Below are positions 39,027-44,634 of a stretch of 64,000 nucleotides of DNA, one piece after another. Source of the stretch: Mortierella sp. BCC40632 (lineage: Eukaryota; Mortierellomycota; Mortierellomycetes; Mortierellales; Mortierellaceae). The translations under genes and the position numbers were made by a program. The notes beneath the pieces were generated by a model. That model had not been told where the DNA came from, ran no database searches, and was given only the letters and a program-made list of their open reading frames with translations. The stretch lies in NCBI GenBank assembly GCA_011634665.1, contig WAEK01000001.1, positions 1,007,501 to 1,071,500 of the forward strand, read 5' to 3'. Numbering within the stretch: position 1 is the first letter of the stretch; each line of letters begins with the position of its first letter.

Positions 39027-41936
39027 TTAGGCCTCAGGCTGCTTCTCGGCCTCAGCTTCGGCCTCATCAGCAGCTGGCTTCTTCTCACCAGAAGCAGCAC
39101 CCCTCTTGCCCTCCTTCTCCTTTTTAGCCTTCTCCAAAGCCTCCCTGCGCTCCTGCTCTCCCTTCTCCAACTTTTCCTCAACACGACGGAGAATCTGCTC
39201 GCTATCAACAGGCTTGGCTCCTCCGAAGGGGTTGGGACGCGAAGAGGCCGAGGTCGAGGCGCCCGAGGCCTGAGCCTCGGCGCTACGGGGCTGCAACTCC
39301 AACTTTCTGCGGGTGGCAGGGGCTATAAGGAAGGAAGAGTAGATAGAATCTTGTTAGTATAGATCAATAGACCTTGCTTCTCCCAGAATCATCTACAGAG
39401 GATGAGCCACCTCAAAGACAACCACTTACCAGGGGGAGCACGGTTCGAGAAAGAGGATCCACCGCTACCCCAAGAATTGTCGCGCTGCTCGCGGGGAGGG
39501 CGTGGCCGATCCCAACCAGGACGAGCATTGTCCGAAGGAGGGAGAGGCTCAGTACGTCTCCAGCTGCCGACATCCGTGCGATCGGGGGGACGCTCCGAGT
39601 TGGCGCGACCAGTTCCAAACTCACGACGAGGTGGACGATCAGCACCAAACTCGCCGCGGTCACCGCGGTCACCACGGTCACCACGGTCGCCTCCGTAGCG
39701 GTCGCCTCCGAAACGTCCTCCGCTGGGTCCTGAGGGTGCAGGCTCACGCTCACGGCGCCAGTCTCCAGCAGTTCGGTCCACGCGGGTCTCACGTTCACGG
39801 GCTTTTTTCGATCAGATCAAACGATCAGGTAGACACGAGTCAGTGAAAAAGAACGATATAAAGTCCCTGCATCCACACCGCAATGAAAAGAAAGAAAGAA
39901 AGAAAGAAAAACACATACGTGGCTCGGCAATGCTGACACGGACATTTCTGCCGCAAAGACTCTGGCCATTGCTCTCCAAGGCTCTCTTGAGATCATCCAG
40001 AGTGTCAAACTCGACATATCCAAAGCCCTTGGGCTTGTCCTCAAAGTCCTTCATGATGCGGATCTGAGTGATCTATTGATTTCCCAAGTGGAAGAAAAAA
40101 AAATAAACAAAGGGCAAGTCCTAGATGAGCCTCGAGAGAAAAATAAAAAAGGAAGGGAGCTCCCTTCATTCCCATCCATCCTTGACACTTGTTGGCTGCT
40201 CAGGCTTTCAATCATCAGCTATCATTCTCCTTCTTCTTCTTCCATCTCTCTGTACCTGGCAGCCGGCGAAAAAGTCTTCAATGTCACGGTCGGTAACATC
40301 GAACGACAAGTTGCCAAGGTGGATCGTGAAAGGAGGACGAGTGGGGAGCTCGACTGGCGCGCGAGGAGGGAAGCGAGGCTCATCCCTATCGCCAAATCCT
40401 ACAGTCAAGAAAAAAAAATAGAAAAAATAGAAAAAGTGTGTGTGTGTGTGAGTAAAAGATATGGAGACTAATATGCTTCAAGAATAAAACGCCTTCTTTT
40501 GTCAAGCTGTAACAAGAGGGTGTGTGTGTGTGTGTAGAAAGGTCGAGTTGACTCAAAAGAGAGCGAGAAAGAGAGAAAAGAGAGAACTGGTTTACTTACC
40601 ACCACGGCTCGAGAAGCCACGACCGCCACGATCCGCGCCACGATCGTTACCGCCGTATCCGCCAGAGCGGAAATCGTCTGATGTATGGTGAATCCCAAGA
40701 GTGGAAGGGTACGGAGAGAGAGATAGGGAGAGAGAGAGAGAGAGAGAGAGAGATTGAAGGAGAAAGAGAAAGGTAGAATCCAGTCAAGGTGAGCAAGGTT
40801 GGTCAGGAGACAGCCCACAAAACAGTGTCGACAGAGAGAAGACGCCTAGACCAAACTCCTAGATTCCTGTGACAACACATTCTATATATATTTTCTTTGT
40901 GTACCTTGGCCAACAGCTGCAAAAGAAGGAAGAGGAAAGAAAGTTAAAAAAGAAAGAAGAAAAAGTGTTGGGAGATAAGTTGTCTGGGGTTTAGCTTATT
41001 GTAGACAAACTCCGGTCCAAGAGATCCAATCGTCCAAAAGCTCTAGTTGCATATGAAGAAGAAGAAAAAAAGACTTACCAGCAGGGGCCGAGGGCAAATC
41101 GTCCATCTCATCAGCCCAGGAACCAAGGGCTAGTGATCAGGAACAAAAGTGTATCCAGGATGGACATGGACCAACGTTCATTAAAATATCAACACGGAGG
41201 TACCAGGGTACGGAGAGAGAAAGAGAAAGAGAGAAAAAAAAAACGGCGGGAGAGAACGGAAAGAAGAGCAGAGGAGCCTGTCAATAAAAAATAAAATAGA
41301 AAAGCGGTGGACAATCATTCCTCCATGGTGGCCGCAACGATGGCGATGGTGGACAAAGTTGGTGAGGATGGAAGAGTGTGATGCAGAGGGCGAAGCTGCT
41401 ATGAAGAAATGAATCCGTCTCCTGGCTAGTTGTCGAGCTTTGTTTCTGTCGTGCCGTGGGGAGTAGGGGAGGAGGGGGAGGAGAGTGTGTGTGAGAGAGA
41501 GAGAAGGCGCATAGTAGGGTTGGATACATACTGGAGTCCGACAAGAACTCGCTCAAGCCCATCTTGACGACTTTTTTCTTTTGCTTCTTTTGACCTAAAG
41601 GGATGTCGAATAAGCGTCCCCCGAATAATAGAGAGAGAGGTAGACAGCGAGAGCATGATCAGTTGTCTATAGAGGCATTCGACTGGTCGCAGAGAGTTCT
41701 CCTACTCCATGGATCAATGTCAGGGGCAGGCTTTTCTTTTTTTTTTTAAAAAAAAAAAAAAATGAAAATGAAAAGGACGCAATTGAGCTGCAGTAAGACT
41801 GGAACTGCAAATGGAAAATTTTTGGAGGCGGGAAAAGGGAGCCTTTCCAGATGCTCATCCCATCCTGCTTTCCCCATTCTCCTGCTACAACCCGTCGGAT
41901 CTGAGTAAAAAAAACGGATCCCGCACCTTCAGCCAT
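39027..41936 (-). CDS. eIF4B / TIF3: Translation initiation factor eIF4B
   Basis: RNA-binding cofactor that stimulates the eIF4A helicase during mRNA scanning. Nine small exons can be joined in phase. The first is MAEG (41936 leftward), then QKKQKKKVVKMGLSEFLSD and LGSWADEMDDLPSAPA. A 12-nt micro-exon (40905-40916) is followed by an RGG-like G/R-rich exon and then the RRM. The RRM is split over two exons, with RNP2 IHLGNL and RNP1 KGFGYVEF. Next comes a GDR-repeat exon (near 39640-39700) and the last exon, with the charged KLEKGEQERREALEKAKKE helix and an acidic end. The SEFLSDS...LGSWADEMDDLP opening is diagnostic for fungal eIF4B. The GDR repeats come from 9-bp DNA repeats. The start is well placed because the first exon joins in phase with the lysine-rich second exon. 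Confidence 0.92.
39655..39705 (-). repeat. 9-bp repeat coding (GDR)n in eIF4B
   Basis: Tandem 9-bp units (complement of GGTCACCGC/GGTCACCAC) coding GDR tripeptides. They correspond to the repeat region that in yeast Tif3 contributes to ribosome and RNA binding. Confidence 0.75.
40905..40916 (-). other. 12-nt micro-exon of eIF4B
   Basis: CTGTTGGCCAAG flanked by CAG acceptor and GTAC donor. It joins the preceding PSAPA exon and the following DDFRSGG exon in phase (codes the A-V-G-Q-D junction). Confidence 0.6.
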
Positions 41937-42686
41937 GGTGGAATAAAATGAGTGATGGAACAAGAAAATAAATCTGGCAGGTTTTTCAGGTGCTCGCATG
42001 GGACTGTTGCAGGCCCAAAATTGCGATAATTACGTCACCGAAGCTATCATCGCTCCTACAGCCTGATGATCAGCACAAAAGCGTTTGGTTCCGAACATAC
42101 AAAAAAAAAAAAACTTCTAGCCTAAGCCTAAACTACACTAAAGCTTGGCGATCTTGTTAACGCGTTCGCTTCCTACGCCAGGAATAGTCCTCTTGGCGAC
42201 TCGGGGGGGACTGCTTGAGGCACTGGAGCTTGCTATGCCATTGCTGGCGCTGGAGCTGCCCAAGGCGGTGCTACTGCTTGCATCAGTAACTATTCTTTCC
42301 TCTGCAAGCGATGCAGCCTTTCATGGATATCGGCCGTCTTCAGTAACCGGTTGGAGGTAAAGTAGCCTCTCTCGCTTTGTCGGGTAGCCTCGCGCAATGT
42401 TGCTCATATTCTGCGCTGCCATCGTGTCCCTGTGGTAGTATCTTTTGCACTGAGGACAAAATAGTTGATGGATGGTCACTTGAGCAACAAATTTTTGGCA
42501 ATCAGGATACTTCTTTGAAGTGTAGAATTCATTAATCCCGATTACAAGATACCCTAAGGGTCGAGCCTAGACAAGAAGAGTTTGTCAGTACCGGGAGACA
42601 CTAGCAGACACCAACTTCATTTCGAGAAAAATTCTTACCAATCCGATAAAGTAACGCAGGAATGAAGAATCCAGAGAAGACATTCG

Positions 42687-42694
42687 AATAGTGC
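42687..42694. repeat. 8-bp direct repeat, left copy (target-site duplication)
   Basis: AATAGTGC on the plus strand, identical to the copy at 43070-43077. It marks the left junction of the insertion. Confidence 0.6.
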
Positions 42695-43069
42695 AAAATA
42701 ATATTTGGAACAAGCACAAAAGGGAAATGGCTCGCACCGCTTGGCAGGCACGGTCGTTAAACCGGATTGGGGAAGGGGATATGGGGGACAATCCAACCAA
42801 TGCGCATCGCCCGATCTCCAAGAAGAAGAGGGGAAAGAAAGGAATAAAGTGATACAAAAGACTCGTGAACCGCACAATATCTAGCTGCAGGGTCTCGCCT
42901 GCGGGACGAACTAATAGGCGGACCTGCTCTGGAAGGTAAGCTTTCAAACTAACGGATCGAGGAGAAAGAGGAAAAAAAAAGAACTGCCTTTATAAAATGC
43001 TGTAGAGGGGTGCCTTTTATATACCTCCCCCCCCCCTGGAAGATCTTCCAGGTGCATTTATTACACCAC
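42695..43069. mobile_element. 375-bp MITE-like insertion inside the Fanzor-like gene
   Basis: Bounded by identical 8-bp copies of AATAGTGC at 42687-42694 and 43070-43077. Taking out the 375 bases plus one copy leaves the two coding halves in the same frame (GKF-stop-STIRMSSLD). The ends show only weak inverted similarity (TAATATTTG against TAATAAATG). The insert carries a GGAAGATCTTCC palindrome (about 43038-43049), a C10 run and a TATATAAAA-like box on the minus strand. An 8-bp target duplication is typical of hAT-type elements, but the ends are not classical hAT ends. Confidence 0.55.
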
Positions 43070-43077
43070 AATAGTGC
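43070..43077. repeat. 8-bp direct repeat, right copy (target-site duplication)
   Basis: AATAGTGC on the plus strand, identical to 42687-42694. It marks the right junction of the insertion. Confidence 0.6.
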
Positions 43078-43269
43078 TCTAGAACTTCCCGAGTCCTATG
43101 GCAATCAGCACTGGGTTTGTATTGTTGGTGTTGTAGATCACATTTCTCTCAGCAAAGTCGATAAATAGGAACCTAAATAGAGAGCCAGAGGAGACGTTTA
43201 GAGGTCGTCTGCATGCGAAAGCTGTAAACAGGGCCATTTTTACTCCCATAGCTGGCATAGCAGGGCCAG

Positions 43270-43276
43270 TATAAAT
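43270..43276 (+). promoter_or_regulatory. TATA box upstream of the small gene at 43468
   Basis: TATAAAT about 190 bases before the candidate ATG, in the same arrangement as at 3268. It also lies within the 5' piece of the Fanzor-like remnant. Confidence 0.4.
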
Positions 43277-43339
43277 ATTGACCTTAGCCCTTGAATAAAC
43301 CACACATCTTATCTCACCGTCATCCCCTTACACAAACAT

Positions 43340-44331: not shown

Positions 44332-44634
44332 TTATGACCTTGTTGTCTCCTTCACAAGGAGCTCCAGGTTAGATTCTCTAATCATTCTAAGGATAGCGCT
44401 TGCTGCCATCCTGAACTCCTCCTCTCTTGATCGCTGTGTGTTCCATTGATGTCTGAGGGTGATGTTGTGTTGTCGCATACTCCTTCCAAGTGGTTTGGAT
44501 TTTGTTTTTAGATCGCTCCTGATACCTTCTTTTTGTTTTGGATCTTGACGATGAGGAAACTTACACTTGAAGTTCTTTATCGATTTAGAAGGGGCCTTAC
44601 CAGTATTCCTTTTGCCATCGGCGTAGGTTGTGCT
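44332..44634 (-). pseudogene. Second Fanzor-like fragment (no start codon)
   Basis: A 100-codon open stretch on the minus strand, bounded by stops and with no upstream ATG. It reads YADGKRNTGKAPSKSIKNF, FPHRQDPKQKEGIRSDLK, HQWNTQRSREEEFRMAAS and ILRMIRES. Just before its stop the neighbouring frame continues with GDNKVITGVGN, which resembles VLIAIGLGKF in the other remnant. That suggests a frameshifted central segment of a related Fanzor-like protein, from a different copy. This is inference from pattern likeness only; no catalytic motif is present in this piece. Confidence 0.35.

Follow-up and report, generated by a model that had tools for sequence, protein, structure and literature searches.

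The stretch of 64,000 nucleotides analyzed here, referred to as a whole as the window, is part of contig WAEK01000001.1 of Mortierella sp. BCC40632 (assembly GCA_011634665.1, positions 1,007,501 to 1,071,500) and carries on its minus strand the decayed C-terminal part of a gene related to RNA-guided nucleases of the Fanzor/TnpB type, followed by a decayed copy of a structured RNA. A previous sequence-only reading had proposed a decayed Fanzor gene at 42138..43303, and the motifs it relied on, IGLGKF with the adjacent stop, NEFYTSKK, YPDC, CPQC and HRDTMAAQNM, were all found on the minus strand at the places given. The location of the gene was right, but the remnant extends further than proposed and consists of the following parts:

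About 44613 to 42138, plus the 3' RNA down to 42008, minus strand: whole remnant
44371..44613, minus strand: remnant of the helical region preceding RuvC-II, HQWNTQRSREEEFRMAASAILRMI (tblastn with P0014 and P0036, expectation value (E) about 4e-4; family profile 6.7e-5, model positions 33-63)
43129..43319, minus strand: foreign repeat of about 190 bp with many genome copies (at most 89% identity), within an insertion parting the helical piece from the RuvC-II piece
43082..43123, minus strand: RuvC-II strand NTNPVLIAIGLGKF, canonical Glu missing (read from the sequence; profile positions 68-84, E 0.13)
43079-43081, minus strand: in-frame stop after IGLGKF (read from the sequence)
43070-43077 and 42687-42694: octamer GCACTATT, an 8-bp duplication bracketing the 375-bp repeat (from the octamer positions)
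42695..43069, minus strand: interspersed repeat of 375 bp inserted into the exon (at least 45 genome matches including its own)
42639..42692, minus strand: end of the RuvC-II exon (TIRMSSLDSSFLRYFIGL), spanned by tblastn with P0050 and P0005 (profile positions 87-106, E 0.085)
42567..42638, minus strand: GT-AG intron of 72 nt (read from the sequence), at the position of the last intron in the exon map of the related locus L009
42138..42566, minus strand: last exon with the shifted Glu (NEFYTSKK), zinc ribbon and RuvC-III HRD (PF07282 1.4e-9; profile 6.5e-32 for 42324-42566)
42321-42323, minus strand: premature stop in the last exon
42138-42320, minus strand: tail of the last exon to the stop at 42138-42140, assigned by position alone, with no family match
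42008..42103, minus strand: decayed copy of the 3' structured RNA, a candidate omega RNA or right-element RNA (reRNA) (covariance model: 24.2 bits, E 4.9e-4)
42029..42040, minus strand: core CGGTGACGTAAT of the 3' RNA (its 11-mer GGTGACGTAAT is single in the window, 0.02 expected)

The insertion that had been noticed between IGLGKF and NEF is real but consists of two parts, the 375-bp repeat and the 72-nt intron, and the further insertion upstream of IGLGKF, which includes the 190-bp repeat, had been overlooked. The window gene is dead: stops follow IGLGKF and DGRYP. Its RuvC-I piece is lost. In the zinc ribbon the first Cys of the first CxxC is changed to Tyr (YPDC), while CPQC and HRDTMAAQNM are present. 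This mutation of CPDC had been correctly recognized; however, since the closest genomic copy, L002, also carries the C-to-Y change, it may predate the death of the window copy.

The match of the remnant to a Fanzor/TnpB-type domain was confirmed and is far above chance. Upon comparison of the minus-strand frame 42566-42321 with Pfam, Cas12f1-like_TNB (PF07282) passed its cut-off, seven orders of magnitude ahead of the next family, and the same frame matched guided_TnpB of NCBIfam (2e-6, under its cut-off); its match to L79, a TnpB-like protein of mimivirus, was weak (0.1). A family profile scanned against 2525 window frames, each of at least 12 residues, detected four minus-strand pieces in the correct order, at 44634-44335 (6.7e-5), 43327-43082 (0.13), 42989-42588 (0.085) and 42566-42324 (6.5e-32), of which the two middle pieces are weak singly and are carried by their order and position. 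Although C1 and other zinc domains of Pfam also matched weakly, which could hint at a different zinc-ribbon protein or at a chance open frame, the lead of PF07282 and the family profile refute such an origin and leave it practically no probability. In addition, Fanzor1 structures ranked first in three of four structure searches; in the remaining one EXO1/FEN1 entries were at the top, and the Fanzor PpFz occupied row 44 among the best 50 listed. Together with the collinear profile matches and a shifted RuvC-II Glu, these rankings bear out the proposed decayed Fanzor gene.

Intact relatives, which the sequence-only reading had suggested looking for, are present in the same genome (49.9 Mb, 62 contigs), where the last-exon region gave 59 matches including the window's own, several as near-identical sets. 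Locus L009 can be read without interruption through six exons, with introns placed by hand, as a protein of 1346 residues; all exons join in frame and no stop separates its two halves. Its residues ~1-260 are FEN1/Rad2-like (best PDB match 3.1e-6; Pfam XPG_I 0.034, under the cut-off), a feature that the earlier reading had not anticipated. Homologs of L009 residues 880-1346 comprised 72 proteins, four of them with both Pfam domains, and the public gene models combining both domains come from four genera. All 71 homologs with an organism name belong to genera of Mortierellomycota; likewise, the best 120 of 352 proteins from a second C-terminal search were all from Mortierellomycota wherever an organism was named, as were eight of eight listed proteins from a third. 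When genome matches were merged into 57 TNB loci and 48 XPG-like loci, 20 of the 57 had an XPG-like locus 2.9-4.1 kb upstream on the same strand, compared to none on the opposite strand and four downstream. The linker between the halves is conserved as well, e.g. in the RYSFK and HxPP columns of alignment A2. It could be argued that the FEN1-like part is a separate neighbor gene and that the fused models are prediction errors, given that the fusion is based on gene models and hand-placed introns, not on transcripts, and that many genomic copies display only one half. However, the in-frame join in L009, the two-domain models from four genera, the regular spacing in 20 loci and the conserved linker make this very unlikely. 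We consider the family to be multi-copy, transposon-borne proteins of ~1150-1360 residues with a FEN1/EXO1/Rad2-type 5' nuclease at the N-terminus and a Fanzor1-like RuvC nuclease at the C-terminus. The window copy probably had the same fusion, judging from its relatives including L002, which has an XPG-like piece 3.7 kb upstream. Two of the loci, L024 and L025, contain a second Fanzor-like gene (DPG, DEFRTSQTC; TNB 0.0048, under the cut-off) upstream of the FEN1-Fanzor gene in the same direction, and may represent an element carrying two Fanzor-like genes. At L018:1-3899 a second gene that combines an XPG-like with a Fanzor-like part, the latter having DPG at RuvC-I, was read by eye in tandem upstream (TNB 1e-4, under the cut-off; XPG-like piece without Pfam match).

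Structure searches assigned the Fanzor1 fold to the C-terminal two thirds of the protein and the FEN1/EXO1/Rad2-XPG fold to residues 2-297, in which all seven catalytic carboxylates are present, whereas identity to EXO1 and FEN1 was 15-16% in the top rows. The assignment of these carboxylates uses the FEN1 numbering and the EAD variant of EXO1. All three RuvC carboxylates are kept in the family. The RuvC-II Glu stands at the alternative place in 46 of the 51 rows having a letter there and precedes the first zinc Cys by six residues in all 44 rows keeping both, as it does in the window (NEFYTSKK). The sequence-only reading had correctly described such a relocated Glu, which, six residues ahead of the zinc ribbon, forms together with DPG at RuvC-I the Fanzor fingerprint in the available portion of PMC10711439, where a TDG motif is also placed in the Fanzor1 WED domain; TDG occurs in 54 and TNG in 12 of 72 family rows with letters. 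RuvC-I is mostly DLG (49 of 70 rows), DGG or DAG, a deviation from the Fanzor DPG that had likewise not been foreseen, and since it fails this half of the published fingerprint, the family is named Fanzor1-like rather than a member. The C-terminal half would be expected to work like Fanzor1, given its shifted Glu, its TDG motif and fold, the accompanying RNA and its location in transposons. Some catalytic residues are missing from the aligned public gene models P0029, P0052 and P0068, through mis-annotation, misalignment or decay.

A structured RNA beside the 3' ends of intact copies had also been suggested as a check, and a conserved hairpin RNA was found directly behind the gene, up to the element 3' end, in most subfamilies. 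The motif GGTGACGTAA, with at most one mismatch, follows the gene in 18 of 28 loci, overlapping the frame end in L023. The core CGGTGACGTAAT of the RNA is exact in nine of ten aligned representatives and has one substitution in L009, while the last exons of these representatives share only 44-57% identity with that of the window. This 12-mer has 49 genome copies, compared to seven for the reversed control, and 19 of these 49 copies are located no more than 700 nt 3' of a same-strand TNB locus (opposite strand, none). Neither the window nor six loci matched Rfam at gathering thresholds, and no tRNA was found in the window. When ten 3' ends were aligned plainly with MAFFT, RNAalifold predicted no more than seven pairs, so a hand-drawn structure was supplied to the RNA model. 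The covariance model, built from six loci with the window excluded, detects the window RNA with the score listed above. A search of 28 sources with this model yielded 24 matches up to E 1, seven of which (L024, L025, L016 minus, two in L004, L002 and L027) were dropped ahead of the pair count by omitting sources and tightening the threshold; those in L024 and L025 had E 0.012 and lay on the strand opposite to the gene. Over 15 distinct rows, 95.5% of the helix 1 cells are paired, and in the whole structure 10 cells are changed on both sides compared to 3.0 in shuffles (0/500 as high), values to be read with the caveat that the model alignment is biased to its own structure and that related rows inflate the control. 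Folding was better than in dinucleotide shuffles in six of ten copies (z-scores: L018 -7.2, L016 -5.8, L003 -4.6, L010 -4.2, L009 -3.7, L022 -2.6). Among the five L010-type, three L016-type and two L018-type copies, homology within each set ends at one point just past the RNA. In Fanzor1, according to the available portion of PMC10711439, the RNA has three stems and extends ~15 nt past the duplication, and the observed end of homology fits a guide taken from the flank in the same way. The hairpins might instead be a DNA end sequence read by the transposase of the element, as homology stops exactly at them and the core is nearly invariant, like a protein-binding site. However, the two-sided changes in helix 1 and the folding above shuffles point to RNA, and in Fanzor1 both functions can apply, the transposon ends forming part of the reRNA scaffold (available portion of PMC10711439). 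A purely DNA-level role appears rather unlikely.

The ends of the L016-type element read GGA(T/A)AT... and ...GATGCGTGGCTTTC, and 8-bp duplications flank three copies, namely AAAAAAAG (L016), CCACTACC (L017) and TAGTCCGA (the C15 copy), the last of which had been anticipated from the left flank before it was found on the right. For the L010, L018 and L024 types no left end could be established. In view of the introns of L009, the only locus considered in this respect, retrotransposition was left aside. A divergent gene inside the L016 type (SWIM 3e-7; FAR1 7.8e-4, under the cut-off) may be MULE-like (Mutator-like element), judging from its domains; MULE transposons have terminal inverted repeats and duplications of ~9 bp. 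This gene, present within one element type, and the deviation of RuvC-I from DPG might indicate an accessory role in transposition for a family that is catalytically alive but not RNA-guided. We regard this as improbable in view of the three RuvC carboxylates, the six-residue spacing, TDG/TNG and the Fanzor1 fold, all of which are kept, along with the RNA in most subfamilies. At L013/L016 (contig C2) and L014/L039 (contig C15) an L016-type element with its 8-bp duplication abuts the 3' end of an L010-type element exactly, and the flanking bases differ between the two junctions.

Taken together, the window probably contains the dead C-terminal part of a transposon-borne FEN1/EXO1-Fanzor1-like fusion gene with a 3' RNA and the RNA-guided mechanism proposed below. 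A number of observations weigh against this interpretation. No more than 2 of 70 rows have DPG at RuvC-I, and dN/dS (the ratio of non-synonymous to synonymous substitution rates) ranged from 0.06 to 0.72 in four of the copy pairs. In the window no FEN1 trace was detected by tblastn or by profile (best E 0.15, wrong strand), 37 of the 57 TNB loci had no XPG match 1.5-9 kb upstream (one C19 pair is closer than this span), and 28 of the 48 XPG-like loci had no TNB; truncated copies and host nucleases are likely among these one-half loci. For the RNA, 10 of 28 loci (L002, L004, L007, L008, L015, L024-L028) gave no core even with one mismatch allowed, and 30 of its 49 copies do not lie near a TNB locus, compared to ~7 expected from the control; these may mark other RNAs or decayed copies. 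Two further covariation controls were unimpressive (double-change pairs, 19/500 shuffles; further pair types, 185/500), one core-hairpin pair is formed in only 6 of 15 rows, folding is weak in L020 (-1.6), L006 (-1.4) and L005 (-1.2), and the window RNA folds no better than shuffles (z +0.16). Finally, L020 homology to L018 ends earlier than that of the others, only a single element type is known to have duplications, one of the three, AAAAAAAG, being of low complexity, L021 shows none, and terminal inverted repeats were not found, the search with the element right end giving only 10-11 bp matches.

Both 5' flaps and recessed ends are established substrates of FEN1/EXO1 enzymes, whose activity would steer a break to recombination. 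In the proposed mechanism, the RNA would be processed out of the element 3' end and run into flanking DNA acting as guide, the Fanzor half would cut the RNA-matched site, e.g. an empty insertion site, and the tethered FEN1/EXO1 half would then trim the exposed 5' ends or flaps, which would favor repair copied from the element-bearing chromosome or complete transposition. When a mobile element carries two DNA nucleases that are linked and have intact sites, RNA-guided cutting followed by 5' trimming appears to be their likeliest use. More tentatively, and with rather less than even probability, the fused protein might be a self-contained homing machine, in which a guided break at the empty site and EXO1/FEN1 trimming lead to repair that copies the element in; since the L016 type abuts L010-type 3' ends at two loci with differing flanks, different element types may even have one another's 3' junctions as targets.

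The family resembles Fanzor1 (SpuFz, PpFz, GtFz) in the fold of its C-terminal two thirds, the shifted Glu with its spacing and TDG/TNG, as well as in its location in eukaryotic DNA transposons with a hairpin RNA at the 3' end beside the target-site duplication. In contrast to Fanzor1, it has an additional N-terminal FEN1/EXO1-type nuclease of ~300 residues, a RuvC-I that is mostly other than DPG and, perhaps, the RNA core CGGTGACGTAAT. It shares the fold and the seven carboxylates with FEN1/EXO1/Rad2-XPG nucleases but differs from them in being joined to a Fanzor-like domain within a mobile element. The MuDR-type Fanzor1 elements ROr-4, PBl-3 and MCi-4 of Mucorales, which in the available portion of PMC3627910 have terminal inverted repeats and duplications of 9 bp but no gene for a MuDR transposase, are similar as fungal elements associating a Fanzor with MuDR-type features, whereas the L016 type has 8-bp duplications and a SWIM/FAR1 gene, and inverted repeats were not found in it. 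'Fanzor flap endonuclease homologs (Fendons)' from viral contigs, the nearest mention found, are named in one sentence of the available portion of PMC11071296, which describes no fusion; compared by description, the likeness lies in the linked names. No description of a FEN1-Fanzor fusion was found in the literature searched, which did not cover subscription journals; the available texts of PMC10432273, PMC10711439 and PMC3627910 mention neither FEN1/FEN nor XPG nor Mortierella, and that of PMC11423790 likewise neither of the last two. If true, a natural RNA-guided nuclease equipped with a flap/exonuclease domain would add a new architecture to the Fanzor-type enzymes. It would make testable why eukaryotic transposons retain Fanzors, notably whether they do so for break processing and homing, and genome editing with integrated end processing could use it as a starting enzyme; for both, material is available in the 352 related proteins from one search and in the copies whose 3' RNA ends are sharp.

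With respect to neighboring genes, the L018 element ends 127 bp ahead of the presumed start codon of a gene that looks like NDUFS2, and the L025 element 808 bp ahead of that of a gene that looks like EF-Tu; the elements may favor gene 5' flanks. In the window, the 375-bp repeat within the remnant is regarded as similar to a miniature inverted-repeat transposable element (MITE) or a short interspersed nuclear element (SINE), and ~450 bp downstream of the remnant's RNA a gene starts at 41562 on the minus strand, the beginning of which resembles eIF4B/TIF3.
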